Assembly: GCA_949128115.1 (NCBI GenBank)
Contig: OX421961.1
Location: 123,941,050 to 124,005,049 of the forward strand
Direction: 5' to 3'
Origin: Anaspis maculata
Lineage: Eukaryota; Arthropoda; Insecta; Coleoptera; Scraptiidae
Length of the DNA stretch: 64,000 nucleotides
Shown: positions 22,005 to 49,901 of the stretch, piece by piece
Layout of the letters: each line of letters starts with the position of its first letter
Position numbering within the stretch: position 1 is the first letter of the stretch
Position numbers and translations under genes: made by a program
The notes under the pieces: model-generated
The model's input: the letters and a program-made list of their open reading frames with translations, nothing else
Told to the model about the DNA's origin: nothing
Database searches by the model: none

Positions 22005-22008
22005 TTAA

Positions 22009-22801
22009 CCTTCGCAACTCACACATATATTTTAGTTACAAGATACTCACACTGGGGTCCCCGGGACCCTGATTTTCCAAAGTCGTTGATACATATATGT
22101 AGTTTTTTTGTACAACAAGTGACTATGTATATGGATGAAAAGAATCATAGTCTATATATTTTATGGATTATCAAGCATCAAAATACAAAATTGATTGTTC
22201 TGGGGTGATCTTTGTCTAACAATGTGAGAAATATACCAAAAAAGTGATGGGTTGATATGATTATTATTTTTTCAAAATTGACAATGCGTTGGAAAAAAAG
22301 AATTAAACTTTAAATGTATGTAAGGAAGGACCAACATGAAAAAAAAAATTCGAACAATATAATTTTAAAAGCCAGTCTTAGCGAAGTTGTTGAAAACTGC
22401 TATTATTCGCTATGCAGTCTTCGCATTTCCACGCTCTGTGCTCGTCTCACATTGGTTTATGACAGACATAACATGCGTTTTTTGTCTTTCTGTCTTTTCT
22501 CTGAGACAGACGACACACTTATCTTCCGTGTCGACAATCTCTCGTCGACCTGGAAGTGGTCACGTATTCCAAAATATAGTTACATGGATCTCACAGTGGG
22601 GTCCAGAGTACCCGAGCATAACTTTGGATGCTCTTAAAAACAATACAAAACGCATCTGAGGTGAATTACTGGAAGTATAGGTGGGCGAAGGTACAAACTG
22701 AATTTACATGGACGGGTGCTGCCCAATTTGCAACCGTTAAAAAATTATCGAAAAAACAAAATTCGCTCGGGTCTTTTGGACCCCAGAGTGAGGTGCGAAG
22801 G
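22009..22801. mobile_element. piggyBac-like MITE with TTAA sites
   Basis: Left end CCTTCGCAACTCACAC, right end its reverse complement with one or two changes (GAGTGAGGTGCGAAGG). Both are flanked by TTAA (22005-22008 and 22802-22805). Subterminal CTGGGGTCC and GGGTCTTTTGGACCCC are also in inverted orientation, and a third copy of this motif (AGTGGGGTCCAGAGTACCC) lies inside near 22590. TTAA targeting with TIRs beginning CC is the signature of piggyBac elements (known biology). No transposase: the open frames of 80-107 codons are not DDE-like, so this is a non-autonomous element of 793 bp. Confidence 0.75.
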
Positions 22802-22805
22802 TTAA

Positions 22806-24414
22806 ATATCGATAGGAATGGAACAAGTCAACTTTCCCACAGAAAAAAATTGAATCTTTTCTGAATCGATAAAGTTTTTATTTCAGTTTATATTCAAAAC
22901 TTTATGGGACGGATGGCTTTCTGTTTCGTGGGGCTGTCGAGATGCGTCTCCCTTACCTTTAAGCCGAATACTGGAGAAATCTCAACAGCACCAGCGGTAC
23001 CAAAGTTGAGTGGCAGAAGTGAGGAAAGCGTCGAATTTAAAAAAAAAAAAACATGTTACTCACAACCACTATGGTAATTGATTCATTACAGACCATGTAA
23101 GAGGGCAGGAAGTGACTCATTACCTACTTCGCGGGAAAATGGAGGAATGGTGGCTTTAGAAAAATAAAATAAAAATAATACCTACATCCAACCAATGAGA
23201 GGGGTAAACAAGTATTACCTGAACATTCCGTGCCTGGACCAAATTTCAGCAAAATTGATCGGCCAATTTCGAAGTTGTGACAAAAAATTGATTTTCAAAT
23301 TACAACTTGTGAACCATCAAACGTTGGAGCCATTAACGTCCGGACTAGTACCTGGTTATGAGTAAACTAGTATACATATTCTGGACAATAAATGTATCTT
23401 TCCTGTTTCGGGCTAGAACCTCCAGCGGAGCGTTTCTTCTCAAAAATTTCTTCTCAAGGTAGGCCTTCATCTCCTCGCTAGCCATGTTTTTCGCCAGATT
23501 TTCAGGAATCAAGGGCGACTTGGGGAGAAATTTATTTGATGACTCCGTATATAAGACAGCCTATATTCCAACATCATCTAAAGACTCTATGGTTAGGTAC
23601 TTTTTTACCATTAAGTCTGAGGCACCCTGTACAACCATTACCTATTTTGATAGGCACAGCCTTTTTCATCAACATTTGTATCATTGAGACGATTGGGCGA
23701 ATAAAGACCTGAATACTGGAACAGTGAATAATCGCGGCACCGTTTTATTAACGCCAACATTCAGTGCAGCAGTGCGGGAATCTCTAATTAGGATTTTTAC
23801 ATGCATATCTCCCGGCATTTTATACATACACATTCTTGAAGACTTGTTTTGATTTTGTGGTGAGTGGGCAGTGGGCAGCAATACAGGGTTCGCTATATTA
23901 GACGGCCTGTTTTGATTCTCGAATAAACTTGTTTGAATATTGACTAAAATATCAAGTTCGCGGTTTTTCTATATCCTTATAAATAATATGCACTGCCTAA
24001 TTGACAGTTGGTGTAGTTCATATGAAGACTACCAAGCTCGCTATCAACTTTCTAAGTAAACAAGGCATACTCAGATCTTTGCTCAGATCCAACCTAGCAT
24101 TCAAGATTGTTTGTGGCATGGAAACGATTTCAAAAAGTCAACTCCAAAACCCTGATCTTCTCAAAGAAGTTTTCATGGACCATGAGTTTTTCCCTCGGTT
24201 TTTCCATTCCTTCAAAGTTTTTACCAACCAGTACCTGATACCATGTATCGAGTTTCAGAAAATTATGTTTCTACAAAAATGCTCCTGAACCATTCGGTTG
24301 ATCCCTCAATCGATGTAGAGCAGATCACACGATGTGTACAATTGAAAAAACTTCAAAAAGTTTTTATTTTGGGAAATCCGATTTGTTGTATGACTTACAC
24401 TTGCATAGAAAAAA
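22806..24414. other. Intronic stretch, no supported gene
   Basis: Unassigned. A frame at 24001-24288 (ATG at 24022) has balanced composition but no recognisable family, no flanking splice logic and no homologous copy in the window. ACAGGGTTCG at about 23883 may be a degenerate transposon end. Confidence 0.4.
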
Positions 24415-24670
24415 GCAACGTAGTACACACCCAGTGGTAGATATTTCTGTCTCAACAGTCTGTCACAAACGCCAACAGTTCACTAAAATCTTTTGAAATA
24501 ACGAAAGTAGAAGAGTTTGAAAGACCACCCATTCACCCTTAAATCTTCATAACTTTAAAAATAAAAGTCAAACAAAATTTTCATTATTTTTTGTGGGCTT
24601 TATAAAAGACTCCCTATAGCAAAGTAACGTGTTCGGGTGCACCATTTCGAGATCCCCCTGTTGGTATTAG
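24415..24670. repeat. Solo arm related to the element at 50988-51616
   Basis: CACACCCAGTGG, CAGTTCACTAAAATCTTTTG, AAATAACGAAA, GACCACCCATTCACC, and TTTTTTGTGGGCTTTATA... occur in the same order as at about 51345-51616. It ends with GAGATCCCCCTGTTGG instead of GATCACCCTGTATG. The matching opposite arm is absent here. Confidence 0.5.
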
Positions 24671-24820
24671 GTGACACCTTTTATGTCGAGTTTTATGTTC
24701 TTCTTTTCAGAAGACATTGCTTTAGTCTTCTTGAACTTTAAAATGAAGCATTAAGGCCAGTAGCGGGAAGCGAGAAAGAGACATAATAATTATGCTTGCA
24801 AAAGGTTCCATATGTACTGG

Positions 24821-24829
24821 CCGATTTCT
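24821..24829. repeat. 9-bp target-site duplication, left copy
   Basis: CCGATTTCT directly before the left end (ACCGGTGTGAAG) of the foldback element. The identical 9 bp follow the right end at 43943-43951. Confidence 0.9.
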
Positions 24830-25107
24830 ACCGGTGTGAAGACAGCAAACTTGAGATAGCAGAAATTTTACCGAAGATTGCCGAACGCCCAGTGGCGCAC
24901 CACAGATCAAGATTCATACGTGCATGCCTCTGGTTGATGTATTCGGCAAAAAGAAAAGTAGAAAACCTCAATAAAGCATGGCAAAATTATGGCACCCGTT
25001 TGTGCTTTCACACAAACTCATCAATCGAAATAACTAAACCTCATTTTTCTTTTCTTAATTATTTGAATCATCTCGACAATCGAAATAATAATTCAGCAAT
25101 CATTTCT
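24830..25107 (+). repeat. Unique terminal segment of the foldback element, left
   Basis: About 278 bp that are not part of the 185-bp repeat and match the reverse complement of 43665-43942. Both copies leave one frame open (CEDSKLEIAEILPKIAERP at its start) into the first repeat. The only visible difference in the middle is CCTCAT here versus TTAATT on the right. The frame enters from the flanking DNA and has no start codon near the element end, so I do not call it a gene. Confidence 0.8.
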
Positions 25108-28100
25108 TCGGGAACGCAAATTGTGATCACTTTTATATAAACGTAAGTTGTAGAGCTCATCCAGAGCAAGAATTTCATCAAGCAAGAAAATCAACTCGCA
25201 CTAGGTTTCCCGGGGGTTAAAACTCACCCCAAACACTAAGTTGTCACCTAGAAACAGAGATTCGCGTAAAGTGCCCACACAAAAAAAATGTTTTTTCGGG
25301 AACGCAAATTGTGATCCTTTTTATACTTATATAAGTCGTAGAGCTCATCCAGAGCAACAATTTCATGCAAGAAAATCAACTCGCACTAGGTTTCCCGGGG
25401 GTTAAAACTCACCCCGAACACTAAGTTGTCACCTAGAAACAGAGATTCGCATAAAGTGCTCACACAAAAAAATAGTTTTTTCGGGAACGCAAATTGTGAT
25501 CCTTTTTATACTGATATAAGTCGTAGAGCTCATCCAGAGCAACAATTTCATGCAAGAAAATCAGCTCGCACTAGGTTTCCCGGGGGTTAAAACTCACCCC
25601 AAACACTAAGTTGTCACCTAGAAACGGAGATTCGCATAAAGTGCCCACACAAAAAAATAGTTTTTTCGGGAACGCAAATTGTGATCCTTTTTATACTGAT
25701 AAAAGTCGTAAAGCTCATCCAAAGCAACAATTTCATGCAAGAAAATCAACTCGCACTAGGTTTCCCGGGGGTTAAAACTCACCCCAAACACTAAGTTGTC
25801 ACCTAGAAACAGAGATTCGCGTAAAGTGCCCACACAAAAAAATTGTTTTTTCGGGAACGCAAATTGTGATCCTTTTTATACTGATATAAGTCGTAGAGCT
25901 CATCCAGAGCAACAATTTCATGCAAGAAAATCAACTCGCACTAGGTTTCCCGGGGGTTAAAACTCACCCCAAACACTAAGTTGTCACCTAGAAACAGAGA
26001 TTCGCGTAAAGTGCCCACACAAAAAAATTGTTTTTTCGGGAACGCAAATTGTGATCCTTTTTATACTGATATAAGTCGTAGAGCTCATCCAGAGCAACAA
26101 TTTCATGCAAGAAAATCAACTCGCACTAGGTTTCCCGGGGGATAAAACTCACCCCAAACACTAAGTTGTCACCTAGAAACAGAGATTCGCGTAAAGTGCC
26201 CACACAAAAAAATTGTTTTTTCGGGAACGCAAATTGTGATCCTTTTTATACTGAGAAAAGTCGTGAAGCTCATCCAGAGCAACAATTTCATGCAAGAAAA
26301 TCAACTCGCACTAGGTTTCCCGGGGGTTAAAACTCACCCCAAACACTAAGTTGTCACCTAGAAACGGAGATTCGCATAAAGTGCCCACACAAAAAAATAG
26401 TTTTTTCGGGAACGCAAATTGTGATCCTTTTTATACTGATAAAAGTCGTAAAGCTCATCCAGAGCAACAATTTCATGCAAGGAAATCAACTCGCACTAGG
26501 TTTCCCGGGGGTTAAAACTCACCCCAAACACTAAGTTGTCACCTAGAAACAGAGATTCGCATAAAGTGCCCACACAAAAAAATTGTTTTTTCGGGAACGC
26601 AAATTGTGATCCTTTTTATACTGATATAAGTCGTAGAGCTCATCCAGAGCAACAATTTCATGCAAGAAAATCAACTCGCACTAGGTTTCCCGGGGGTTAA
26701 ATCTCACCCCAAACACTAAGTTGTCACCTAGAAACAGAGATTCGCGTAAAGTGCCCACACAAAAAAATTGTTTTTTCGGGAACGCAAATTGTGATCCTTT
26801 TTATACTGATATAAGTCGTAGAGCTCATCCAGAGCAACAATTTCATGCAAGAAAATCAACTCGCACTAGGTTTCCCGGGGGATGAAACTCACCCCAAACA
26901 CTAAGTTGTCACCTAGAAACAGAGATTCGCGTAAAGTGCCCACACAAAAAAATTGTTTTTTCGGGAACGCAAATTGTGATCCTTTTTATACTGAGAAAAG
27001 TCGTGAAGCTCATCCAGAGCAACAATTTCATGCAAGAAAATCAACTCGCACTAGGTTTCCCGGGGGTTAAAACTCACCCCAAACACTAAGTTGTCACCTG
27101 GAAACAGAGATTCGCATAAAGTGCCCACACAAAAAAATTGTTTTTTCGGGAACGCAAATTGTGATCCTTTTTATACTGATAAAAGTCGTAAAGCTCATCC
27201 AGAGCAACAATTTCATGCAAGGAAATCAACTCGCACTAGGTTTCCCGGGGGTTAAAACTCACCCCAAACACTAAGTTGTCACCTAGAAACAGAGATTCGC
27301 GTAAAGTGCCCACACAAAAGAATTGTTTTTTCGGGAACGCAAATTGTGATCCTTTTTATACTGATATAAGTCGTAGAGCTCATCCAGAGCAACAATTTCA
27401 TGCAAGAGAATCAACTCGCACTAGGTTTCCCGGGGGTTAAAACTCACCCCAAACACTAAGTTGTCACCTAGAAACAGAGATTCGCATAAAGTGCCCACAC
27501 AAAAAAATTGTTTTTTCGGGAACGCAAATTGTGATCCTTTTTATACTGATATAAGTCGTAGAGCTCATCCAGAGCAACAATTTCATGCAAGAAAATCAAC
27601 TCGCACTAGGTTTCCCGGGGGTTAAATCTCACCCCAAACACTAAGTTGTCACCTAGAAACAGAGATTCGCATAAAGTGCTCACACAAAAAAATTGCTTTT
27701 TCGGGAACGCAAATTGTGATCCTTTTTATACTGATAAAAATCGTAAAGCTCATCCAGAGCAACAATTTCATGCAAGAAAATCAACTCGCACTAGGTTTCC
27801 CGGGGGTTAAAACTCACCCCAAACACTAAGTTGTCACCTAGAAACAGAGATTCGCGTAATTGTGATCCTTTTTATACTGATATAAGTCGTAGAGCTCATC
27901 CAGAGCAACAATTTCATGCAAGAAAATCAACTCGCACTAGGTTTCCCGGGGGTTAAAACTCACCCCGAACACTAAGTTGTCACCTAGAAACGGAGATTCG
28001 CATAAAGTGCCCACACAAAAAAATAGTTTTTTCGGGAACGCAAATTGTGATCCTTTTTATACTGATAAAAGTCGTAAAGCTCATCCAAAGCAACAATTTC

Positions 28101-31100
28101 ATGCAAGAAAATCAACTCGTACTAGGTTTCCCGGGGGTTAAAACTCACCCCAAACACTAAGTTGTCACCTAGAAACAGAGATTCGCGTAAAGTGCCCACA
28201 CAAAAAAATTGTTTTTTCGGGAACGCAAATTGTGATCCTTTTTATACTGATATAAGTCGTAGAGCTCATCCAGAGCAACAATTTCATGCAAGAAAATCAA
28301 CTCGCACTAGGTTTCCCGGGGGTTAAAACTCACCCCAAACACTAAGTTGTCACCTAGAAACAGAGATTCGCATAAAGTGCCCACACAAAAAAATTGTTTT
28401 TTCGGGAACGCAAATTGTGATCCTTTTTATACTGATAAAAGTCGTAAAGCTCATCCAAAGCAACAATTTCATGCAAGAAAATCAACTCGTACTAGGTTTC
28501 CCGGGGGTTACAACTCACCCCAAACACTAAGTTGTCACCTAGAAACGGAGATTCGCATAAAGTGCCCACACAAAAAAATAGTTTTTTCGGGAACGCAAAT
28601 TGTGATCCTTTTTATACTGATAAAAGTCGTAAAGCTCATCCAAAGCAACAATTTCATGCAAGAAAATCAACTCGTACTAGGTTTCCCGGGGGTTAAATCT
28701 CACCCCAAACACTAAGTTGTCACCTAGAAACAGAGATTCGCATAAAGTGCTCACACAAAAAAATTGCTTTTTTGGGAACGCAAATTGTGATCCTTTTTAT
28801 ACTGATAAAAATCGTAAAGCTCATCCAGAGCAACAATTTCATGCAAGAAAATCAACTCGCACTAGGTTTCCCGGGGGTTAAAACTCACCCCAAACACTAA
28901 GTTGTCACCTGGAAACAGAGATTCGCATAAAGTGCCCACACAAAAAAATTGTTTTTTCGGGAACGCAAATTGTGATCCTTTTTATACTGATAAAAGTCGT
29001 AAAGCTCATCCAGAGCAACAATTTCATGCAAGGAAATCAACTCGCACTAGGTTTCCCGGGGGTTAAAACTCACCCCAAACACTAAGTTGTCACCTGGAAA
29101 CAGAGATTCGCATAAAGTGCCCACACAAAAAAATTGTTTTTTCGGGAACGCAAATTGTGATCCTTTTTATACTGATAAAAGTCGTAAAGCTCATCCAGAG
29201 CAACAATTTCATGCTAGGAAATCAACTCGCACTAGGTTTCCCGGGGGTTAAAACTCACCCCAAACACTAAGTTGTCACCTAGAAACAGAGATTCGCGTAA
29301 AGTGCCCACACAAAAAAATTGTTTTTTCGGGAACGCAAATTGTGATCCTTTTTATACTGAGAAAAGTCGTGAAGCTCATCCAGAGCAACAATTTCATGCA
29401 AGAAAATCAACTCGCACTAGGTTTCCCGGGGGTTAAAACTCACCCCAAACACTAAGTTGTCACCTGGAAACAGAGATTCGCATAAAGTGCCCACACAAAA
29501 AAATTGTTTTTTCGGGAACGCAAATTGTGATCCTTTTTATACTGATAAAAGTCGTAAAGCTCATCCAGAGCAACAATTTCATGCAAGGAAATCAACTCGC
29601 ACTAGGTTTCCCGGGGGTTAAAACTCACCCCAAACACTAAGTTGTCACCTAGAAACAGAGATTCGCGTAAAGTGCCCACACAAAAGAATTGTTTTTTCGG
29701 GAACGCAAATTGTGATCCTTTTTATACTGATATAAGTCGTAGAGCTCATCCAGAGCAACAATTTCATGCAAAAGAATCAACTCGCACTAGGTTTCCCGGG
29801 GGTTAAAACTCACCCCAAACACTAAGTTGTCACCTAGAAACAGAGATTCGCATAAAGTGCCCACACAAAAAAATTGTTTTTTCGGGAACGCAAATTGTGA
29901 TCCTTTTTATACTGATATAAGTCGTAGAGCTCATCCAGAGCAACAATTTCATGCAAGAAAATCAACTCGCACTAGGTTTCCCGGGGGTTAAATCTCACCC
30001 CAAACACTAAGTTGTCACCTAGAAACAGAGATTCGCATAAAGTGCTCACACAAAAAAATTGCTTTTTCGGGAACGCAAATTGTGATCCTTTTTATACTGA
30101 TAAAAATCGTAAAGCTCATCCAGAGCAACAATTTCATGCAAGAAAATCAACTCGCACTAGGTTTCCCGGGGGTTAAAACTCACCCCGAACACTAAGTTGT
30201 CACCTAGAAACGGAGATTCGCATAAAGTGCCCACACAAAAAAATAGTTTTTTCGGGAACGCAAATTGTGATCCTTTTTATACTGATAAAAGTCGTAAAGC
30301 TCATCCAAAGCAACAATTTCATGCAAGAAAATCAACTCGTACTAGGTTTCCCGGGGGTTAAAACTCACCCCAAACACTAAGTTGTCACCTAGAAACGGAG
30401 ATTCGCATAAAGTGCCCACACAAAAAAATAGTTTTTTCGGGAACGCAAATTGTGATCCTTTTTATACTGATAAAAGTCGTAAAGCTCATCCAAAGCAACA
30501 ATTTCATGCAAGAAAATCAACTCGTACTAGGTTTCCCGGGGGTTAAAACTCACCCCAAACACTAAGTTGTCACCTAGAAACAGAGATTCGCGTAAAGTGC
30601 CCACACAAAAAAATTGTTTTTTCGGGAACGCAAATTGTGATCCTTTTTATACTGATATAAGTCGTAGAGCTCATCCAGAGCAACAATTTCATGCAAGAAA
30701 ATCAACTCGCACTAGGTTTCCCGGGGGTTAAAACTCACCCCAAACACTAAGTTGTCACCTAGAAACAGAGATTCGCGTAAAGTGCCCACACAAAAAAATT
30801 GTTTTTTCGGGAACGCAAATTGTGATCCTTTTTATACTGAGAAAAGTCGTGAAGCTCATCCAGAGCAACAATTTCATGCAAGAAAATCAACTCGCACTAG
30901 GTTTCCCGGGGGTTAAAACTCACCCCAAACACTAAGTTGTCACCTAGAAACGGAGATTCGCATAAAGTGCCCACACAAAAAAATAGTTTTCTCGGGAACG
31001 CAAATTGTGATCCTTTTTATACTGATAAAAGTCGTAAAGCTCATCCAGAGCAACAATTTCATGCAAGGAAATCAACTCGCACTGGGTTTCCCGGGGGTTA

Positions 31101-34100
31101 AAACTCACCCCAAACACTAAGTTGTCACCTAGAAACAGAGATTCGCGTAAAGTGCCCACACAAAAAAATTGTTTTTTCGGGAACGCAAATTGTGATCCTT
31201 TTTATACTGATATAAGTCGTGGAGCTCATCCAGAGCAACAATTTCATGCAAGAGAATCAACTCGCACTAGGTTTCCCGGGGGTTAAAACTCACCCCAAAC
31301 ACTAAGTTGTCACCTAGAAACAGAGATTCGCATAAAGTGCCCACACAAAAAAATTGTTTTTTCGGGAACGCAAATTGTGATCCTTTTTATACTGATAAAA
31401 GTCGTAAAGCTCATCCAAAGCAACAATTTCATGCAAGAAAATCAACTCGTACTAGGTTTCCCGGGGGTTAAAACTCACCCCAAACACTAAGTTGTCACCT
31501 AGAAACGGAGATTCGCATAAAGTGCCCACACAAAAAAATAGTTTTTTCGGGAACGCAAATTGTGATCCTTTTTATACTGATAAAAGTCGTAAAGCTCATC
31601 CAAAGCAACAATTTCATGCAAGAAAATCAACTCGTACTAGGTTTCCCGGGGGTTAAAACTCACCCCAAACACTAAGTTGTCACCTAGAAACGGAGATTCG
31701 CATAAAGTGCCCACACAAAAAAATAGTTTTTTCGGGAACGCAAATTGTGATCCTTTTTATACTGATATAAGTCGTAGAGCTCATCCAGAGCAACAATTTC
31801 ATGCAAGAAAATCAACTCGCACTAGGTTTCCCGGGGGTTAAATCTCACCCCAAACACTAAGTTGTCACCTAGAAACAGAGATTCGCATAAAGTGCTCACA
31901 CAAAAAAATTGCTTTTTCGGGAACGCAAATTGTGATCCTTTTTATACTGATAAAAATCGTAAAGCTCATCCAGAGCAACAATTTCATGCAAGAAAATCAA
32001 CTCGCACTAGGTTTCCCGGGGGTTAAAACTCACCCCGAACACTAAGTTGTCACCTAGAAACGGAGATTCGCATAAAGTGCCCACACAAAAAAATAGTTTT
32101 TTCGGGAACGCAAATTGTGATCCTTTTTATACTGATAAAAGTCGTAAAGCTCATCCAAAGCAACAATTTCATGCAAGAAAATCAACTCGTACTAGGTTTC
32201 CCGGGGGTTAAAACTCACCCCAAACACTAAGTTGTCACCTAGAAACAGAGATTCGCGTAAAGTGCCCACACAAAAAAATTGTTTTTTCGGGAACGCAAAT
32301 TGTGATCCTTTTTATACTGATATAAGTCGTAGAGCTCATCCAGAGCAACAATTTCATGCAAGAAAATCAACTCGCACTAGGTTTCCCGGGGGTTAAAACT
32401 CACCCCAAACACTAAGTTGTCACCTAGAAACAGAGATTCGCGTAAAGTGCCCACACAAAAAAATTGTTTTTTCGGGAACGCAAATTGTGATCCTTTTTAT
32501 ACTGAGAAAAGTCGTGAAGCTCATCCAGAGCAACAATTTCATGCAAGAAAATCAACTCGCACTAGGTTTCCCGGGGGTTAAAACTCACCCCAAACACTAA
32601 GTTGTCACCTAGAAACGGAGATTCGCATAAAGTGCCCACACAAAAAAATAGTTTTCTCGGGAACGCAAATTGTGATCCTTTTTATACTGATAAAAGTCGT
32701 AAAGCTCATCCAGAGCAACAATTTCATGCAAGGAAATCAACTCGCACTGGGTTTCCCGGGGGTTAAAACTCACCCCAAACACTAAGTTGTCACCTAGAAA
32801 CAGAGATTCGCGTAAAGTGCCCACACAAAAAAATTGTTTTTTCGGGAACGCAAATTGTGATCCTTTTTATACTGATATAAGTCGTGGAGCTCATCCAGAG
32901 CAACAATTTCATGCAAGAGAATCAACTCGCACTAGGTTTCCCGGGGGTTAAAACTCACCCCAAACACTAAGTTGTCACCTAGAAACAGAGATTCGCATAA
33001 AGTGCCCACACAAAAAAATTGTTTTTTCGGGAACGCAAATTGTGATCCTTTTTATACTGATAAAAGTCGTAAAGCTCATCCAAAGCAACAATTTCATGCA
33101 AGAAAATCAACTCGTACTAGGTTTCCCGGGGGTTAAAACTCACCCCAAACACTAAGTTGTCACCTAGAAACGGAGATTCGCATAAAGTGCCCACACAAAA
33201 AAATAGTTTTTTCGGGAACGCAAATTGTGATCCTTTTTATACTGATAAAAGTCGTAAAGCTCATCCAAAGCAACAATTTCATGCAAGAAAATCAACTCGT
33301 ACTAGGTTTCCCGGGGGTTAAATCTCACCCCAAACACTAAGTTGTCACCTAGAAACAGAGATTCGCATAAAGTGCTCAAACAAAAAAATTGCTTTTTTGG
33401 GAACGCAAATTGTGATCCTTTTTATACTGATAAAAATCGTAAAGCTCATCCAGAGCAACAATTTCATGCAAGAAAATCAACTCGCACTAGGTTTCCCGGG
33501 GGTTAAAACTCACCCCAAACACTAAGTTGTCACCTGGAAACAGAGATTCGCATAAAGTGCCCACACAAAAAAATTGTTTTTTCGGGAACGCAAATTGTGA
33601 TCCTTTTTATACTGATAAAAGTCGTAAAGCTCATCCAGAGCAACAATTTCATGCAAGGAAATCAACTCGCACTAGGTTTCCCGGGGGTTAAAACTCACCC
33701 CAAACACTAAGTTGTCACCTGGAAACAGAGATTCGCATAAAGTGCCCACACAAAAAAATTGTTTTTTCGGGAACGCAAATTGTGATCCTTTATATACTGA
33801 TAAAAGTCGTAAAGCTCATCCAGAGCAACAATTTCATGCTAGGAAATCAACTCGCACTAGGTTTCCCGGGGGTTAAAACTCACCCCAAACACTAAGTTGT
33901 CACCTAGAAACAGAGATTCGCGTAAAGTGCCCACACAAAAAAATTGTTTTTTCGGGAACGCAAATTGTGATCCTTTTTATACTGATATAAGTCGTAGAGC
34001 TCATCCAGAGCAACAATTTCATGCAAGAGAATCAACTCGCACTAGGTTTCCCGGGGGTTAAAACTCTCCCCAAACACTAAGTTGTCACCTAGAAACAGAG

Positions 34101-37100
34101 ATTCGCATAAAGTGCCCACACAAAAAAATTGTTTTTTCGGGAACGCAAATTGTGATCCTTTTTATACTGATATAAGTCGTAGAGCTCATCCAGAGCAACA
34201 ATTTCATGCAAGAAAATCAACTCGCACTAGGTTTCCCGGGGGTTAAATCTCACCCCAAACACTAAAATGTCACCTAGAAACAGAGATTCGCATAAAGTGC
34301 TCACACAAAAAAATTGTTTTTTCAGGAACGCAAATTGTGATCCTTTTTATACTAATAAAAATCGTAAAGCTCATCCAGAGCAACAATTTAATGCAAGAAA
34401 ATCAACTCGCACTAGGTTTCCCGGGGGTTAAAACTCACCCCAAACACTAAGTTGTCACCTGGAAACAGAGATTCGCATAAAGTGCCCACACAAAAAAATT
34501 GTTTTTTCGGGAACGCAAATTGTGATCCTTTTTATACTGATATAAGTCGTAGAGCTCATCCAGAGCAACAATTTCATGCAAGAAAATCAACTCGCACTAG
34601 GTTTCCCGGGGGTTAAAACTCACCCCAAACACTAAGTTGTCACCTAGAAACAGAGATTCGCATAAAGTGCCCACACAAAAAAATTGTTTTTCCGGGAACG
34701 CAAACTGTGATCCTTTTTATACTGATATAAGTCGTAGAGCTCATCCAGAGCAACAATTTCATGCAAGAAAATCAACTCGCACTAGGTTTCCCGGGGGTTA
34801 AAACTCACCCCAAACACTAAGTTGTCACCTAGAAACAGAGATTCGCGTAAAGTGCCCACACAAAAAAATTGTTTTTTCGGGAACGCAAATTGTGATCCTT
34901 TTTATACTGAGAAAAGTCGTGAAGCTCATCCAGAGCAACAATTTCATGCAAGAAAATCAACTCGCACTAGGTTTCCCGGGGGTTAAAACTCACCCCCCAC
35001 ACTAAGTTGTCACCTAGAAACGGAGATTCGCATAAAGTGCCCACACAAAAAAATAGTTTTCTCGTGAACGCAAATTGTGATCCTTTTTATACTGATAAAA
35101 GTCGTAAAGCTCATCCAGAGCAACAATTTCATGCAAGGAAATCAACTCGCACTGGGTTTCCCGGGGGTTAAAACTCACCCCAAACACTAAGTTGTCACCT
35201 AGAAACAGAGATTCGCGTAAAGTGCCCACACAAAAAAATAGTTTTTTCGGGAACGCAAATTGTGATCCTTTTTATACTGATATAAGTCGTGGAGCTCATC
35301 CAGAGCAACAATTTCATGCAAGAAAATCAACTCGCACTAGGTTTCCCGGGGGTTAAAACTCACCCCAAACACTAAGTTGTCACCTGGAAACAGAGATTCG
35401 CATAAAGTGCCCACACAAAAAAATTGTTTTTTCGGGAACGCAAATTGTGATCCTTTTTATACTGAGAAAAGTCGTGAAGCTCATCCAGAGCAACAATTTC
35501 ATGCAAGAAAATCAACTCGCACTAGGTTTCCCGGGGGTTAAAACTAACCCCCCACACTAAGTTGTCACCTAGAAACGGAGATTCGCATAAAGTGCCCACA
35601 CAAAAAAATAGTTTTCTCGTGAACGCAAATTGTGATCCTTTTTATACTGATAAAAGTCGTAAAGCTCATCCAGAGCAACAATTTCATGCAAGGAAATCAA
35701 CTCGCACTGGGTTTCCCGGGGGTTAAAACTCACCCCAAACACTAAGTTGTCACCTAGAAACAGAGATTCGCGTAAAGTGCCCACACAAAAAAATTGTTTT
35801 TTCGGGAACGCAAATTGTGATCCTTTTTATACTGATATAAGTCGTGGAGCTCATCCAGAGCAACAATTTCATGCAAGAAAATCAACTCGCACTAGGTTTC
35901 CCGGGGGTTAAAACTCACCCCAAACACTAAGTTGTCACCTGGAAACAGAGATTCGCATAAAGTGCCCACACAAAAAAATTGTTTTTTCGGGAACGCAAAT
36001 TGTGATCCTTTTTATACTGATAAAAGTCGTAAAGCTCATCCAGAGCAACAATTTCATGCAAGGAAATCAACTCGCACTAGGTTTCCCGGGAGTTAAAACT
36101 CACCCCAAACACTAAGTTGTCACCTGGAAACAGAGATTCGCATAAAGTGCCCACACAAAAAAATTGTTTTTTCGGGAACGCAAATTGTGATCCTTTTTAT
36201 ACTGATAAAAGTCGTAAAGCTCATCCAGAGCAACAATTTCATGCTAGGAAATCAACTCGCACTAGGTTTCCCGGGGGTTAAAACTCACCCCAAACACTAA
36301 GTTGTCACCTAGAAACAGAGATTCGCATAAAGTGCCCACACAAAAAAATTGTTTTTTCGGGAACGCAAATTGTGATCCTTTTTATACTGATATAAGTCGT
36401 AAAGCTCATCCAGAGCAACAATTTCATGCAAGAAAATCAACTCGCACTAGGTTTCCCGGGGGTTAAAACTCACCCCAAACACTAAGTTGTCACCTAGAAA
36501 CAGAGATTCGCATAAAGTGCGCACACAAAAAAATTGTTTTTTCGGGAACACAAATTGTGATCCTTTTTATACTGATAAAAGTCGTAGAGCTCATCCAGAG
36601 CAACAATTTCATGCAAGAAAATCAACTCGCACTAGGTTTCCCGGGGGTTAAAACTCACCCCGAACACTAAGTTGTCACCTAGAAACAGAGATTCGCATAA
36701 AGTGCTCACACAAAAAAATAGTTTTTTCGGGAACGCAAATTGTGATCCTTTTTATACTGATATAAGTCGTAGAGCTCATCCAGAGCAACAATTTCATGCA
36801 AGAAAATCAACTCGCACTTGGTTTCCCGGGGGTTAAAACTCACCCCAAACACTAAGTTGTCACCTAGAAACAGAGATTCGCGTAAAGTGCCCACACAAAA
36901 AAATAGTTTTTTCGGGAACGCAAATTGTGATCCTTTTTATACTGATATAAGTCGTAGAGCTCATCCAGAGCAACAATTTCATGCAAGAGAATCAACTCGC
37001 ACTAGGTTTCCCGGGGGTTAAAACTCACCCCAAACACTAAGTTGTCACCTAGAAACAGAGATTCGCATAAAGTGCCCACACAAAAAAATTGTTTTTTCGG

Positions 37101-37168
37101 GAACGCAAATTGTGATCCTTTTTATACTAATATAAGTCGTAGAGCTCATCCAGAGCAACTATTTCATG
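25108..37168 (+). repeat. Tandem array of 185-bp repeats, left arm, about 65 copies
   Basis: The spacing of AACTCACCCC is exactly 185 bp between successive copies (25221, 25406, 25591, 25776 ...). Each unit contains TTCGGGAACGCAAATTGTGA, GTCGTAGAGCTCATCCAGAG, CTAGGTTTCCCGGGGGTTAA and AACACTAAGTTGTCACCTAG. Units differ by a few bases, in linked variants (CGGAGATTCGCAT/CAGAGATTCGCGT; GATATAAGTCG/GATAAAAGTCG/GAGAAAAGTCG). Variant patterns repeat at 1665 bp (9 units), 2405 bp (13 units) and 4625 bp (25 units), showing higher-order duplication. As 185 is not a multiple of 3, the open frames in it shift with each unit and are not genes. Confidence 0.95.
27857..27858 (+). repeat. Truncated unit: 39-bp deletion in the array
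   Basis: At this junction TTCGCGTAA is joined straight to TTGTGATCC. The 39 bp that normally lie between them (from AGTGCCCACA to GAACGCAAA) are missing. It is the only shortened unit I noticed in the left arm and puts later units out of the earlier register by 39 bp. Confidence 0.8.
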
Positions 37169-37183
37169 AAAAAAACCCGTTTC
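37169..37183. other. Palindrome centre of the foldback element
   Basis: The left-arm unit stops after ATTTCATG and the right arm starts with CCCGAAAAAACAATT. Between them lies AAAAAAACCCGTTT. The switch falls in mid-unit on both sides, at different points of the 185-bp unit, so the centre is a rearrangement junction rather than a loop carrying a gene. Confidence 0.8.
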
Positions 37184-40100
37184 CCGAAAAAACAATTTTT
37201 TTGTGTGAGCACTTTATGCGAATCTCTGTTTCTAGGTGACAACTTAGTGTTTGGGGTGAGTTTTAACCCCCGGGAAACCTAGTGCGAGTAGATTTTCTTG
37301 CATGAAATTGTTGCTCTGGATGAGCTCTACGACTTATATCAGTATGAAAAGGATCACAATTTGCGTTCCCGAAAAAACAATTTTTTTGTGTGGGCACTTT
37401 ACGCGAATCTCTGTTTCTAGGTGACAACTTAGTGTTTGGGGTGAGTTTCAACCCCCGGGAAACCTAGTGCGAGTTGATTTTCTTGCATGAAATTGTTGCT
37501 CTGGATGAGCTCTACGACTTATATCAGTATAAAAAGGATCACAATTTGCGTTCCTGAAAAAACAATTTTTTTGTGTGGGCACTTTACGCGAATCTCTGTT
37601 TCTAGGTGACAACTTAGTGTTTGGGGTGAGTTTTAACCCCCGGGAAACCTAGTGCGAGTTGATTTTCTTGCATGAAATTGTTGCTCTGGATGAGCTCTAC
37701 GAATTATATCAGTATAAAAAGGATCACAATTTGCGTTCCCGAAAAAACTATTTTTTTGTGTGGGCACTTTACGCAAATCTCTGTTTCTAGGTGACAACTT
37801 AGTGTTTGGGGTGAGTTTTAACCCCCGGGAAACCTAGTGCGAGTTGATTTTCTTGGATGAAATCGTTGCTCTGGATGAGCTCTACGACTTATATCAGTAT
37901 AAAAAGGATCACAATTCGCGTTCCCGAAAAAACATTTTTTTTTGTGTAGGCTCTTTACGCGAATCTCTGTTTCTGGGTGACAACTTAGTGTTTGGGGTGA
38001 GTTTTAACCCCCGGGAAACCTAGTGCGAGTTGATTTTCTTGCATGAAATTGTTGCTCTGGATGAGCTCTACGACTTATATCAGTATAAAAAGGATCACAA
38101 TTTGCGTTCCCGAAAAAACAATTTTTTTGTGTGGGCACTTTACGCGAATCTCTGTTTCTAGGTGACAACTTAGTGTTTGGGGTGAGTTTTAACCCCCGGG
38201 AAACCTAGTGCGAGTTGATTTTCTTGCATAAAATTGTTGCTCTGGATGAGCTCTACGACTTATATCAGTATAAAAAGGATCACAATTTGCGTTCCCGAAA
38301 AAACTATTTTTTTGTGTGGGCACTTTACGCGAATCTCTGTTTCTAGGTGACAACTTAGTGTTTGGGGTGAGTTTTAACCCCCGGGAAACCTAGTGCGAGT
38401 TGATTTTCTTGCATGAAATTGTTGCTCTGGATGAGCTCTACGACTTATATCAGTATAAAAAGGATCACAATTTGCGTTCCCGAAAAAACAATTTTTTTGT
38501 GTGGGCACTTTACGCGAATCTCTGTTTCTAGGTGACAACTTAGTGTTTGGGGTGAGTTTCAACCCCCGGGAAACCTAGTGCGAGTTGATTTTCTTGCATG
38601 AAATTGTTGCTCTGGATGAGCTCTACGACTTATATCAGTATAAAAAGGATCACAATTTGCGTTCCTGAAAAAACAATTTTTTTGTGTGGGCACTTTACGC
38701 GAATCTCTGTTTCTAGGTGACAACTTAGTGTTTGGGGTGAGTTTTAACCCCCGGGAAACCTAGTGCGAGTTGATTTTCTTGCATGAAATTGTTGCTCTGG
38801 ATGAGCTCTACGACTTATATCAGTATAAAAAGGATCACAATTTGCGTTCCCGAAAAAACAATTTTTTTGTGTGGGCACTTTACGCGAATCTCTGTTTCTA
38901 GGTGACAACTTAGTGTTTGGGGTGAGTTTTAACCCCCGGGAAACCTAGTGCGAGTTGATTTTCTTGCATAAAATTGTTGCTCTGGATGAGCTCTACGACT
39001 TATATCAGTATAAAAAGGATCACAATTTGCGTTCCCGAAAAAACTATTTTTTTGTGTGGGCACTTTACGCGAATCTCTGTTTCTAGGTGACAACTTAGTG
39101 TTTGGGGTGAGTTTTAACCCCCGGGAAACCTAGTGCGAGTTGATTTTCTTGCATGAAATTGTTGCTCTGGATGAGCTCTACGACTTATATCAGTATAAAA
39201 AGGATCACAATTTGCGTTCCCGGAAAAACTATTTTTTTGTGTGAGCACTTTATGCGAATCTTTGTTTCTAGGTGACAACTTAGTGTTCGGGGTGAGTTTT
39301 AACCCCCGGGAAATCTAGTGCGAGTTGATTTTCTTGCATGAAATTGTTGCTCTGGATGAGCTCTACGACTTATATCAGTATAAAAAGGATCACAATTTGC
39401 GTTCCCGAAAAAACAATTTTTTTGTGTGGGCACTTTACGCGAATCTCTGTTTCTAGGTGACAACTTAGTGTTTGGGGTGAGTTTTAACCCCCGGGAAACC
39501 TAGTGCGAGTTGATTTTCTTGCATGAAATTGTTGCTCTGGATGAGCTCTACGACTTATATCAGTATAAAAAGGATCACAATTTGCGTTCCCGGAAAAACT
39601 ATTTTTTTGTGTGAGCACTTTATGCGAATCTTTGTTTCTAGGTGACAACTTAGTGTTCGGGGTGAGTTTTAACCCCCGGGAAACCTAGTGCGAGTTGATT
39701 TTCTTGCATGAAATTGTTGCTCTGGATGAGCTCTACGACTTATATCAGTATAAAAAGGATCACAATTTGCGTTCCCGAAAAAACAATTTTTTTGTGTGGG
39801 CACTTTACGCGAATCTCTGTTTCTGGGTGACAACTTAGTGTTTGGGGTGGGTTTTAACCCCCGGGAAACCTAGTGCGAGTTGATTTTCTTGCATGAAATT
39901 GTTGCTCTGGATGAGCTCTACGACTTATATCAGTATAAAAAGGATCACAATTTGCGTTCCCGAAAAAACAATTTTTTTGTGTGGGCACTTTACGCGAATC
40001 TCTGTTTCTAGGTGACAACTTAGTGTTTGGGGTGAGTTTTAACCCCCGGGAAACCTAGTGCGAGTTGATTTTCTTGCATGAAATTGTTGCTCTGGATGAG

Positions 40101-43100
40101 CTCTACGACTTATATTAGTATAAAAAGGATCACAATTTGCGTTCCCGAAAAAACTATTTTTTTGTGTGGGCACTTTACGCGAATCTCTGTTTCTGGGTGA
40201 CAACTTAGTGTTTGAGGTGAGTTTTAACCCCCGGGAAACCTAGTGCGAGTTGATTTTCTCGCATAAAATTGTTGCTCTGGATGAGCTCTACGACTTATAT
40301 CAGTATAAAAAGGATCACAATTTGCGTTCCCGAAAAAACTATTTTTTTGTGTGGGCACTTTACGCGAATCTCTGTTTCTAGGTGACAACTTAGTGTTTGG
40401 GGTGAGTTTTAACCCCCGGGAAACCTAGTGCGAGTTGATTTTCTTGCATGAAATTGTTGCTCTGGATGAGCTCTACGACTTATATCAGTATAAAAAGGAT
40501 CACAATTTGCGTTCCCGAAAAAACTATTTTTTTGTGTGGGCACTTTACGCGAATCTCTGTTTCTAGGTGACAACTTAGTGTTTGGGGTGAGTTTTAACCC
40601 CCGGGAAACCTAGTGCGAGTTGATTTTCTTGCATAAAATTGTTGCTCTGGATGAGCTCTACGACTTATATCAGTATAAAAAGGATCACAATTTGCGTTCC
40701 CGAAAAAACTATTTTTTTGTGTGGGCACTTTACGCGAATCTCTGTTTCTAGGTGACAACTTAGTGTTTGGGGTGAGTTTTAACCCCCGGGAAACCTAGTG
40801 CGAGTTGATTTTCTTGCATGAAATTGTTGCTCTGGATGAGCTCTACGACTTATATCAGTATAAAAAGGATCACAATTTGCGTTCCTGAAAAAACAATTTT
40901 TTTGTGTGGGCACTTTACGCGAATCTCTGTTTCTAGGTGACAACTTAGTGTTTGGGGTGAGTTTTAACCCCCGGGAAACCTAGTGCGAGTTGATTTTCTT
41001 GCATGAAATTGTTGCTCTGGATGAGCTCTACGACTTATATCAGTATAAAAAGGATCACAATTTGCGTTCCCGAAAAAACAATTTTTTTGTGTGGGCACTT
41101 TACGCGAATCTCTGTTTCTAGGTGACAACTTAGTGTTTGGGGTGAGTTTTAACCCCCGGGAAACCTAGTGCGAGTTGATTTTCTTGCATGAAATTGTTGC
41201 TCTGGATGAGCTCTACGACTTATATCAGTATAAAAAGGATCACAATTCGCGTTCCCGAAAAAACATTTTTTTTTGTGTAGGCTCTTTACGCGAATCTCTG
41301 TTTCTGGGTGACAACTTAGTGTTTGGGGTGAGTTTTAACCCCCGGGAAACCTAGTGCGAGTTGATTTTCTCGCATAAAATTGTTGCTCTGGATGAGCTCT
41401 ACGACTTATATCAGTATAAAAAGGATCACAATTTGCGTTCCCGAAAAAACTATTTTTTTGTGTGGGCACTTTACGCGAATCTCTGTTTCTAGGTGACAAC
41501 TTAGTGTTTGGGGTGAGTTTTAACCCCCGGGAAACCTAGTGCGAGTTGATTTTCTTGCATAAAATTGTTGCTCTGGATGAGCTCTACGACTTATATCAGT
41601 ATAAAAAGGATCACAATTTGCGTTCCCGAAAAAACTATTTTTTTGTGTGGGCACTTTACGCGAATCTCTGTTTCTAGGTGACAACTTAGTGTTTGGGGTG
41701 AGTTTTAACCCCCGGGAAACCTAGTGCGAGTTGATTTTCTTGCATGAAATTGTTGCTCTGGATGAGCTCTACGACTTATATCAGTATAAAAAGGATCACA
41801 ATTTGCGTTCCCGAAAAAACAATTTTTTTGTGTGGGCACTTTACGCGAATCTCTGTTTCTAGGTGACAACTTAGTGTTTGGGGTGAGTTTCAACCCCCGG
41901 GAAACCTAGTGCGAGTTGATTTTCTTGCATGAAATTGTTGCTCTGGATGAGCTCTACGACTTATATCAGTATAAAAAGGATCACAATTTGCGTTCCTGAA
42001 AAAACAATTTTTTTGTGTGGGCACTTTACGCGAATCTCTGTTTCTAGGTGACAACTTAGTGTTTGGGGTGAGTTTTAACCCCCGGGAAACCTAGTGCGAG
42101 TTGATTTTCTTGCATGAAATTGTTGCTCTGGATGAGCTCTACGACTTATATCAGTATAAAAAGGATCACAATTTGCGTTCCCGAAAAAACAATTTTTTTG
42201 TGTGGGCACTTTACGCGAATCTCTGTTTCTAGGTGACAACTTAGTGTTTGGGGTGAGTTTTAACCCCCGGGAAACCTAGTGCGAGTTGATTTTCTTGCAT
42301 AAAATTGTTGCTCTGGATGAGCTCTACGACTTATATCAGTATAAAAAGGATCACAATTTGCGTTCCCGAAAAAACTATTTTTTTGTGTGGGCACTTTACG
42401 CGAATCTCTGTTTCTAGGTGACAACTTAGTGTTTGGGGTGAGTTTTAACCCCCGGGAAACCTAGTGCGAGTTGATTTTCTTGCATGAAATTGTTGCTCTG
42501 GATGAGCTCTACGACTTATATCAGTATAAAAAGGATCACAATTTGCGTTCCCGGAAAAACTATTTTTTTGTGTGAGCACTTTATGCGAATCTTTGTTTCT
42601 AGGTGACAACTTAGTGTTCGGGGTGAGTTTTAACCCCCGGGAAATCTAGTGCGAGTTGATTTTCTTGCATGAAATTGTTGCTCTGGATGAGCTCTACGAC
42701 TTATATCAGTATAAAAAGGATCACAATTTGCGTTCCCGAAAAAACAATTTTTTTGTGTGGGCACTTTACGCGAATCTCTGTTTCTAGGTGACAACTTAGT
42801 GTTTGGGGTGAGTTTTAACCCCCGGGAAACCTAGTGCGAGTTGATTTTCTTGCATGAAATTGTTGCTCTGGATGAGCTCTACGACTTATATCAGTATAAA
42901 AAGGATCACAATTTGCGTTCCCGGAAAAACTATTTTTTTGTGTGAGCACTTTATGCGAATCTTTGTTTCTAGGTGACAACTTAGTGTTCGGGGTGAGTTT
43001 TAACCCCCGGGAAACCTAGTGCGAGTTGATTTTCTTGCATGAAATTGTTGCTCTGGATGAGCTCTACGACTTATATCAGTATAAAAAGGATCACAATTTG

Positions 43101-43670
43101 CGTTCCCGAAAAAACAATTTTTTTGTGTGGGCACTTTACGCGAATCTCTGTTTCTGGGTGACAACTTAGTGTTTGGGGTGGGTTTTAACCCCCGGGAAAC
43201 CTAGTGCGAGTTGATTTTCTTGCATGAAATTGTTGCTCTGGATGAGCTCTACGACTTATATCAGTATAAAAAGGATCACAATTTGCGTTCCCGAAAAAAC
43301 AATTTTTTTGTGTGGGCACTTTACGCGAATCTCTGTTTCTAGGTGACAACTTAGTGTTTGGGGTGAGTTTTAACCCCCGGGAAACCTAGTGCGAGTTGAT
43401 TTTCTTGCATGAAATTGTTGCTCTGGATGAGCTCTACGACTTATATTAGTATAAAAAGGATCACAATTTGCGTTCCCGAAAAAACTATTTTTTTGTGTGG
43501 GCACTTTACGCGAATCTCTGTTTCTGGGTGACAACTTAGTGTTTGAGGTGAGTTTTAACCCCCGGGAAACCTAGTGCGAGTTGATTTTCTCGCTTGAAAT
43601 TCTTGCTCTGGATGAGCTCTACAACTTACGTTTATATAAAAGTGATCACAATTTGCGTTCCCGAAGAAAT
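37184..43670 (-). repeat. Tandem array of 185-bp repeats, right arm, about 35 copies
   Basis: Same unit as the left arm, in opposite orientation. A duplicated block is visible. Rare variants ACAATTCGCG (37911 and 41242) and TTTGTTTCTA after TATGCGAATC (39261 and 39631; 42592 and 42962) recur at exactly 3331 bp, which is 18 units plus 1 bp, so about 2.3 kb was copied within this arm. The copied block runs out at the right end of the array. Variants with CGGAGATTCG, common in the left arm, are not seen here, so the arms have evolved partly apart. Confidence 0.95.
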
Positions 43671-43942
43671 GATTGCTGAATTATTATTTCGATTGTCGAG
43701 ATGATTCAAATAATTAAGAAAAGAAAAATTAAGTTTAGTTATTTCGATTGATGAGTTTGTGTGAAAGCACAAACGGGTGCCATAATTTTGCCATGCTTTA
43801 TTGAGGTTTTCTACTTTTCTTTTTGCCGAATACATCAACCAGAGGCATGCACGTATGAATCTTGATCTGTGGTGCGCCACTGGGCGTTCGGCAATCTTCG
43901 GTAAAATTTCTGCTATCTCAAGTTTGCTGTCTTCACACCGGT
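43665..43942 (-). repeat. Unique terminal segment of the foldback element, right
   Basis: Reverse-complement partner of 24830-25107, ending CTTCACACCGGT. The first repeat unit beside it carries the same private changes as the first unit of the left arm (ACGTAAGTTGTAGAGCTC and CAAGAATTTC), so the edge units are conserved between arms. Confidence 0.8.
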
Positions 43943-43951
43943 CCGATTTCT
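43943..43951. repeat. 9-bp target-site duplication, right copy
   Basis: CCGATTTCT, identical to 24821-24829, directly after the right end of the foldback element. Confidence 0.9.
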
Positions 43952-44790
43952 CGCCCCCAAAAATTTTTCTAGGAAAACGCTGAAACAGGTCGATTTTTAT
44001 TTTGAGGGCTACACCTAGGACACGCAATAGCATTTACCTAGGTTATGATACATCAAACTGAAGGTAATGAAATTCTCTTTCTGTCAAACATATTTCAATT
44101 TTTTTCAAGTCGCCTCCCAACCCTTCTCAAAATGCTCTCATTGTTAATTAAATGAAAGCTTTTCCCCTATTTACTTCCGATTCTTGACAATAGATTTTCC
44201 AGCGAAAACAGGTCGATTCTTATTTAGAAGCGGGCATGTAAAACACGTATCGGCAAATTTTTATCTTCAACCCTTTCGCCCTCACTCCACTTAAAAATTT
44301 CAAATAGCAATATTTACCTTGTGATCCATCAGATTGAAGGTAATAAAATGCTCCTGTCTGTAAAAAGTCATTGCAAGTTTATTAAATCACCCTCCAACCC
44401 TTTAAAAAAATTCTCTTAATTGGGGTTGAGAGGTTTGAAGATGAAAATTTCGCTGTTTTTGGTGGAAAATCTATTTCTTGAGGATCGGCAGGTAATAGAG
44501 GTAGAACTTCCATTTAATGACCAATGAAAAATTTTTGAGAAAGGTTGGGAGTGGTTGAAAAGATTTCAAAATATGTTTGACAGAAAGAGAATTTTATTGC
44601 CCTTAATTTGATGTATCACAAGATAGAAAATGCTATTTGAAATTTTAAAGTAGAGTAGGGTGGGGGAGAAGGGGTTGAAGATAGAAATTTGACAGTTTGT
44701 GTCATAGATACGGTCCTAGATGTCCTCAAAATAAAAATCGACCTGTTTCGGCGTTTTTACGGGGAAAAATTAGGCGGTAAGAAATCTGTG
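43952..44790. repeat. Diverged palindromic repeat family, copy 2
   Basis: ACGCTGAAACAGGTCGATTT near 43978 pairs with AAATCGACCTGTTTCGGCGT near 44735. Between them lie inverted and direct copies of the motif TGATACATCAAACTGAAGG / GAATTCTCTTTCTG also seen at 14225-15106. The left arm begins right at the foldback insertion site (GATTTCTCGCCCCC... against ...GGCGGTAAGAAATC), so the foldback element may have inserted at the edge of this older repeat. Confidence 0.45.
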
Positions 44791-45279
44791 GTGGGTTCTT
44801 TTCAAAAAATCATCCTGTATATTATTATGTTACTGTAAATAAAATCAATTGGTAATTATTGTTGATATTTACCAGAAATTGTGATTTTATTTTATATTTT
44901 ACACAATTACACACCCAAATGGTCTAGGGATCACCTCGAAATTCAGTCTCGATCAAAATGACAATTTCTCGAGAAAACATGAACCGATTCTGGAAATTTT
45001 CAGGGTGTTTGATGAAGTAATTCTTTGACTACAAGGTAACACCTTAGATCGCTCGATTGTTGACCCTCTGTACGATATACATGGTGACAATGATGGAAGG
45101 AGCGCAAAAATGATCTGACTTCAGCAAGGTCCCGGCGTTCCGAAAAAACAAGTCGCAGAATTTTCTAGGTGACATTTTTGATAAGCGAACGCCAATATTC
45201 CGAAACGGTTTTGGACTTTTGATAATATTTTGTTTTTTCTAAGATTTATTGTTTTTTTTGTGATTACATACATGATATA
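44791..45279. other. Intronic stretch, no supported feature
   Basis: AT-rich sequence with no open frame of interest and no clear repeat ends other than the terminus at 45280. Confidence 0.4.
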
Positions 45280-45764
45280 CAAGGTGTTACAGCTATGATA
45301 GCAAAAAATTTAACTTTGAGTAGATCTCGTGAAAATATGACGAAAACCTGTGTACCATTTTGCAAAGTTCGACCTAATGACGAAGATACAGCCCTTCTGA
45401 GATCACTTTTTTCGGATTCCAAAAATTTGTAGCTCTTGATCGTTTTCACGAAATTAACCTCAATTCAGCATAGACTGGTTTGTCGAAACTATCTACCGAC
45501 CTGTCAAATTTTGAACGAATCCAACCAGTAGCTTAGGAATTATGAGAGTAATTAATTTAGCAGCATCCGTGGAAAACTTGTCTTGAGGTAGCCCCCCCTG
45601 TAGTCTAGGAGCTAGCGATGGATTTTTCATATCATTTTAACAAAGCTACAATGTTCTCTTCAAAGAAAAAAAAACAAATTGTACGTGTCCCTTATATTGG
45701 GCAATTTTGAGACGTCAAACGATTACCCTGATAGCTTGATCAAATAAGGGCGAGCGGAATGTCC

Positions 45765-45833
45765 ACAACAGCTGGAATGGACGCAAGGTTTAGCGAACCA
45801 TGTCCCAAACGGGCCTGGGTTCGAGACCCACCA
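45765..45833 (+). ncRNA. tRNA-like sequence with strong B box, left arm
   Basis: GGTTCGAGACC at 45818-45828 matches the pol III B box well. GTCCC and GGGCC upstream could form an anticodon-like stem, and GGTTTAGCGAACC a D-arm-like stem. A proper A box and acceptor stem are not evident. The right arm (on the minus strand) has ACGGGACCAGGTTCGAGACC, which pairs better. Confidence 0.4.
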
Positions 45834-46114
45834 AGTTCAATCTCTTTTCTGTAGAAAATCATTTATTTTTATTTTTAAAGCAACTTTAATATGAAATACT
45901 GATTCCTTACTGGATTCTTGACTTTTTTCCGATAAATCAATAACGCCTTTTCGAATTTTTCTTGTTACTTTTCACACGGACTAGGTACTTAACAAGCGAA
46001 CGCTATACTGAACTATGGGAAAAAGTCAAGAATCCAGTAAGGAATCAGTATTTTAAATTTAGATTGATTTGAAGATTTAAAAGCACGATTTTCTTTCGAA
46101 AAAAAAAATCGGAC

Positions 46115-46185
46115 TTGGTGGGTCTCGAACCTGGTCCCGTTTTGGACATGGCTCGTTGAACCTCGCGCCCATTCTAGCTGCTGCG
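46115..46185 (-). ncRNA. tRNA-like sequence with strong B box, right arm
   Basis: Reverse-complement partner of the left-arm unit; B box on the minus strand at 46121-46131. The GTCC/GGAC stem with an AAAACG loop is intact in this copy. Confidence 0.4.
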
Positions 46186-49899: not shown

Positions 49900-49901
49900 T
49901 G

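Follow-up and report, generated by a model that had tools for sequence, protein, structure and literature searches.

The DNA analysed here is a stretch of 64,000 nucleotides from the beetle Anaspis maculata (Scraptiidae; assembly GCA_949128115.1, contig OX421961.1, positions 123,941,050 to 124,005,049 of the forward strand), called the window below. It carries on its minus strand two exons of a doublesex-like gene, and the long intron between them harbours an insertion with arms of satellite DNA, in all probability a foldback transposon of the non-autonomous kind. When joined, the two exons encode a DM domain (Pfam, E 1.3e-20), and the best match among the 120 listed of 404 protein matches was doublesex of the tenebrionid beetle Gnatocerus cornutus, with 85% identity over 93%. 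Most of the listed entries are unnamed; the named ones that ranked above a sawfly entry are beetles. The inserted element extends over positions 24830-43942 (19,113 bp) and makes up 42% of the 45,493-bp intron. Its parts and their surroundings are collected in Table 1.

Table 1. Positions of the element, its components and the host gene within the window
Feature	Position	Strand	Basis or remark
Left copy of target duplication, CCGATTTCT	24821..24829		Sequence comparison with right copy
Left unique tip, 278 bp, starts with ACCGGTGTGAAG	24830..25107	+	2 mismatches relative to right tip
First left monomer, diverged, 188 bp	25108..25295	+	Nearest relative is first right monomer
Left array of the 185-bp repeat, 65 monomers including the first one and the 39-bp-deleted one (within 27701-28031)	25108..37096	+	Tandem Repeats Finder, monomer walking
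Last left monomer, partial, 72 nt	37097..37168	+	Monomer walking
Spacer between opposed arrays, 12 bp, AAAAAAACCCGT	37169..37180		Without a middle domain
Right array, 35 monomers and 7 nt, tip-proximal monomer diverged	37181..43664	-	Tandem Repeats Finder, monomer walking
Right unique tip, 278 bp	43665..43942	-	Comparison with left tip
Right copy of target duplication, CCGATTTCT	43943..43951		Sequence comparison with left copy
Host intron of doublesex-like DM-domain gene, 45,493 bp	6282..51774	-	GT..AG ends, Pfam DM, beetle doublesex matches
Two coding exons of doublesex-like gene flanking the intron	5962-6281, 51775-51911	-	Pfam DM, protein matches, splice sites; end at 5962 is an apparent next splice donor

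The element is flanked by a 9-bp target duplication, CCGATTTCT, whose two copies are identical over all 9 bp and are adjoined by bases that differ between the two sides. Both ends, when read inward, start with the 12-mer ACCGGTGTGAAG, which occurs once per strand in the whole window, at 24830 (plus) and at 43931-43942 (minus). The tips are inverted relative to each other, and their outer 278 bp contain only two mismatches, at 211 and 213 bp from the tip. A preliminary description of this DNA, prepared without database searches, had given the coordinates and the size of 19.1 kb exactly and had called the duplication perfect, which was borne out; the perfect terminal identity that it also reported holds for the first 210 bp and fails beyond them. 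The agreement of the tips, together with the duplication, is far beyond chance. It implies that something with these ends was inserted at this position, the length of the insert not being thereby proven. The sequence of the element contains no N. Folding as single-stranded DNA revealed no special hairpin within the tip (z -0.21 relative to shuffles) or inside one monomer of the arrays (z -0.91).

Behind each tip lies an array of a 185-bp repeat, the two arrays facing in opposite directions. Tandem Repeats Finder detected this period at 25103-27859 and 27858-37175, and in the opposite orientation at 37181-43669. Walking monomer by monomer from the left tip gave 64 units and a 72-nt partial copy; the units correspond to 65 monomers, since one unit, 331 bp long, is composed of two monomers and has a deletion of 39 bp. 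The same procedure gave 35 monomers in the right arm, in agreement with the approximately 100 copies in two opposed arrays announced previously. Exactly 185 bp was the length of 96 of the 100 monomers. The arms differ in size, the left one measuring 12,339 bp and the right one 6,762 bp. The outermost monomers of the two arms are each other's nearest relatives; a pairwise alignment shows 5 substitutions and one indel of 3 bp between them, and the multiple alignment 6 substitutions. A Fisher test (P 0.004) that set the outer 348 bp against the remainder of the first monomer was not used, since the boundary had been picked after looking at the data and the inner count of 6 becomes 5 in the pairwise alignment. 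Derivation of the monomer from the tip was considered and found unsupported; the longest stretch common to the tip and one monomer is 8 bp, which gives no indication of an origin of the satellite in the tip.

Two features of the foldback class are found together: tandem-repeat inverted arms placed behind a terminal domain, and a single inserted unit bordered by a target duplication, exact over its 9 bp. We consider it probable that the element is a non-autonomous foldback DNA transposon of the Mutator (Mutator-like element, MULE) type, most like Rehavkus, which inserted into an intron of the beetle doublesex gene. A mover of the MULE type is likely in view of the 9-bp duplication combined with long inverted ends. 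MULEs are described as generating target duplications of 8-11 bp, a range that includes the 9 bp observed here, and as having inverted ends often hundreds of base pairs long (here and below, published systems are characterised from the accessible parts of the sources). Rehavkus, which is often grouped with MULEs and occurs in arthropod and annelid hosts, is reported to combine a 9-bp duplication, inverted ends of 26-400 bp and a minisatellite located before the 3' end (PMC10218199, PMC6446971). The element shares with it the 9-bp duplication, an inverted end (278 bp) falling within that range, and a satellite beside the inverted end, which in this case is present in both arms.

Several points weigh against this assignment. 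No transposase was found in the element or linked to it. The PHD-finger transposase characteristic of Rehavkus is missing from this copy, in which no open frame exceeds 134 codons, and the longest one, of 134 codons, is array sequence. The likeness to Rehavkus concerns features given in published descriptions; because of this, and because no transposase is encoded, we did not file the element as Rehavkus. A 9-bp duplication alone is insufficient to identify the transposase. Moreover, complete arthropod MULEs were found in a survey to measure 1.4-10.0 kb, half the size of the element described here.

Candidate frames over the tip (one) and the array (two) had no match at E 0.01 in the protein collection, Rfam yielded no families at gathering scores, and ten selected sequences compared with Pfam at E 0.1 gave a single match, the DM domain encoded by the two doublesex exons together. 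Elsewhere in the 64-kb window there was no clear match to the tip or the monomer (best E 0.013, a 24-bp A/T-rich stretch). In an exact-pattern search, the tip was absent from viral contigs and the monomer core from viral and prokaryote genome contigs, a result of little weight as a beetle element is not expected there and as the records of the window itself may be missing from these collections.

It seems improbable that the foldback transposon was moved by an enzyme of another family (P/Galileo, hAT, Merlin or an undescribed one). The hAT elements produce 8-bp target duplications, as opposed to 9 bp in our case. Helitrons have neither a target duplication nor inverted ends, and the presence of both speaks against a satellite carried by a Helitron. 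The foldback form is thought to have arisen in several lineages (PMC4079207), and Galileo, a member of the P superfamily, contains tandem repeats in its ends (PMC3573991), which would speak for a mover of this kind. On the other hand, Galileo copies make 7-bp duplications (PMC3573991), with which the 9 bp found here disagrees, and 9 bp is both the commonest length for Tm1, a MULE foldback element (PMC3169594), and the one listed for Rehavkus.

The anatomy of the element suggests that a transposase supplied in trans recognises the tips, and perhaps sites in the repeats as well, and that insertion takes place via a cut staggered by 9 bp. A middle part with coding sequence may have been lost, and the arms may have been lengthened, each separately, by unequal exchange or replication slippage, with the tips held alike by constraint or conversion. 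It was proposed for Galileo and Tetris that repeats serve as additional transposase-binding sites (PMC3573991, PMC4079207), and it is possible that the repeats of the element studied here could act in this way too.

The composition of the arms sheds light on their history. For these counts the two outermost monomers were excluded and the composite was treated as one unit, which left 63 units on the left and 34 on the right. There were 43 distinct monomer types among the former and 19 among the latter, only one type being common to both arms. Fifteen of the 21 variants carried by at least 5 of the 97 units were specific to one arm (13 to the left, 2 to the right), and two changes were present in 37 of the 63 left units and in none of the 34 right ones. 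When the arm boundary was slid along the DNA order, the mean was 3.8 private variants and 9.7 shared types; 15 private variants were reached in 1 of 96 shifts, and as few as one shared type also occurred in 1 of 96. The mean between-arm versus within-arm monomer distance was rejected as proof of separate arms, being too weak: 22 of 96 shifts, made with the units ordered from tip to centre in both arms, equalled it. The same statistic was also reached by at least 1 of 2,000 label shuffles, and by 36 of 2,000 on distinct types.

Both arms also contain exact copies of long blocks. The longest in the right arm, of 2,142 bp, recurs 18 monomers further on, and in the left arm a block of 1,285 bp is repeated at a lag of 9 monomers, along with several more of 404-521 bp; the longest exact stretch common to both arms is 315 bp. 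The private variants and the exact block duplications within each arm suggest that growth proceeds by local exchange, independently on the two sides. The exact multi-monomer duplications indicate that part of the array growth is recent and may postdate the insertion. The mean difference between units of the same arm is 3.4% on the left and 2.3% on the right, whereas the tips differ by 0.7% (2/278), from which it follows that much of the monomer diversity predates the last common state of the tips.

The same data bear on the reliability of the assembly. The mirror layout could in principle be an artefact, produced by a hairpin-type chimeric read or by collapsed repeats, and exact repeats of 2,142 bp are hard to assemble. 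A hairpin, however, copies one arm, while here 15 of 21 common variants are private to an arm and a single type is shared between sets of 43 and 19; in addition, the duplication is present at both flanks. With arms so unlike in length and in variants, a hairpin-read artefact is unlikely, and we regard an assembly error as a very improbable source of the whole structure. All results come from this one locus in a single assembly, on which the exact monomer counts depend; these may be wrong.

It was claimed in the preliminary description that this satellite DNA had clearly moved as a single transposon. This does not follow from the structure, as a smaller insert with later growth of the arms would give identical ends and the same duplication. 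Movement at full size and growth in place are both sub-cases of the transposon reading and not alternatives to it, and the probability that they leave belongs to mixtures of the two and to other readings. Cutting and pasting of a roughly 19-kb element, with both satellite arms, into the intron as one unit appears to us rather unlikely. Such an event would agree with the intact tips and duplication enclosing the whole element, and with differences within the arms (3.4% and 2.3%) that exceed those between the tips (0.7%). Nevertheless, the tips are a poor clock, as conversion or selection can keep them alike, and at the point estimate the 2,142-bp exact copy is younger than the tips (15 differences expected, none observed), although not at the lower limit of that estimate (P 0.16). 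Nor did the window show another copy with long arms.

A small foldback element with few monomers per arm could instead have inserted, its arms being expanded later by unequal exchange, and we put this forward as a tentative possibility. The exact recent block duplications within each arm point in this direction, as do the private variants and the unequal length of the arms. Allelic copies of Tetris were reported to differ by one repeat, and its authors suggested that large arrays may disrupt transposition (PMC4079207). Against growth from a small insert stands the within-arm monomer diversity, which is several-fold above the divergence of the tips, and no observation dates the growth to after the insertion. 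We expect that multi-monomer arms were already present at insertion and that they have grown further since.

Elements of similar design have been described previously. Rehavkus-1_TC of Tribolium castaneum also carries a tandem unit of satellite length, the 164-bp TCsat23, in its inverted termini, and its host is a tenebrionid, as is that of the nearest listed doublesex in our analysis. It is, however, 9.5 kb long with arrays of mostly 5 and 8 monomers (PMC10218199, PMC6446971), compared with 19.1 kb, 185-bp units and 65 and 35 monomers here, and Rehavkus encodes a PHD-finger transposase, whereas this element encodes none. Tetris of Drosophila virilis resembles the Anaspis element in its unique outer domain, repeats of about 220 bp in both inverted ends, non-autonomous nature and 8-10-bp duplications, as well as in the amplification of its arm repeats into satellite arrays of up to 66 copies (PMC4079207). 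It differs in its fly host and in its three complete copies, which have a middle domain and inverted ends of at most 1,735 bp, and its long arrays are not described in the accessible text as intact elements with a duplication (PMC4079207).

In Galileo subfamily F, a region of tandem repeats of about 210 bp likewise lies in the inverted ends and its repeat number changes independently at each end, but the subfamily belongs to the P superfamily, makes 7-bp duplications and has ends of about 1.26 kb at the longest (PMC3573991). The Tm1 Mutator/foldback elements of root-knot nematodes are similar in that their inverted ends are composite and contain tandem repeats, that most of their duplications are of 9 bp, and that coding and non-coding copies exist; their repeats are of 13-15 bp only and the elements measure about 1-2.6 kb (PMC3169594). 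Thus, the earlier statement that known foldback elements have short units and a far smaller size is correct for size and incorrect for unit length, in view of the units of Tetris, Galileo F and Rehavkus-1_TC. An intact unit with a duplication, both tips and about 100 monomers was not found in our literature search, which was conducted mostly without subscription papers and supports no claim of absence. What is new here is the size, integrity and position of the element; the design itself was already known.

The satellites of Tribolium that form macro-dyads provide a further comparison, being opposed multi-kilobase subarrays in a beetle; in T. madens, opposed satellite arrays reach 75 kb (PMC13081366). 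Such subarrays predominate in TmSat1 and TmSat2 of T. madens and are also known from T. freemani and T. castaneum (PMC13081366), and one could ask whether the structure in Anaspis is a plain mirror-symmetric array of the flour-beetle type, formed with no transposition. We find this extremely improbable. The Tribolium arrays occupy (peri)centromeric megabases (PMC13081366), whereas a single 19-kb unit lies in an intron at this locus, bounded by unique tips in inverted orientation and by a target duplication that is exact over 9 bp.

Other inverted-repeat sequences abound in the window. The intron contains one more sequence of foldback-like form, a palindrome of about 1.75 kb at 15493-17236 that is 89% identical to its own reverse complement; a simple scan found no duplication of at least 6 bp around it. 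Two inverted copies of about 390 bp at 17622-18013 and 18169-18547, which are 92.6% identical and separated by 155 bp, probably form a further small element of the inverted-repeat kind. Imperfect palindromes of greater age, with a self-inverse identity of 66-73%, are located at 12290-13041, 14311-14997, 44206-44748 and 45668-46268, one of them having a 6-bp TGTACA beside matching ends. Altogether, when eight inverted-repeat sequences were scanned in this simple manner for duplications of at least 6 bp by matching ends, one 6-bp case, a palindrome itself, was found, and none for the remaining seven. Two open frames on the plus strand, 8932-9633 (234 codons) and 59608-60078 (157 codons), have no Pfam match at E 0.1. 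The former is perhaps a mobile-element remnant, and the start of the latter may resemble exonuclease-like proteins of invertebrate repeats.

Whether satellites derive from transposons or ride in them is debated, and the examples described in the accessible literature are short arrays or broken copies. In the element of A. maculata the ends are intact, the target duplication is exact, and about 100 monomers preserve a history of duplications that can be read. The preliminary description saw in it a route by which satellite arrays spread through a genome; our results do not support this claim, and transposons as seeders or spreaders of satellites are an idea already published (PMC4079207 among others). 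A more specific proposal would be that satellite-armed foldback transposons founded the satellites with mirror symmetry found in flour beetles and related beetles: an element would jump with both of its opposed arrays, the arms would grow one by one, and loss of the tips would leave a free mirror-symmetric satellite. We regard this as speculative and quite improbable, and it is weakened by the finding that, as far as the accessible text reports, none of 124 satellites of T. madens had evidence of an unambiguous transposon origin over the whole unit (PMC13081366). Should it nonetheless be true, the element described here would represent an intermediate in euchromatin, with tips and duplication still present. 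The element is also a candidate source for the mirror-symmetric satellites of Tribolium. As it lies within a gene, its empty site can be sought in related beetles and its alleles compared, which allows a direct test of whether it was already long when it moved or lengthened afterwards. It also means that a sex-determination gene contains, in one of its introns, a near-palindrome of 19 kb.

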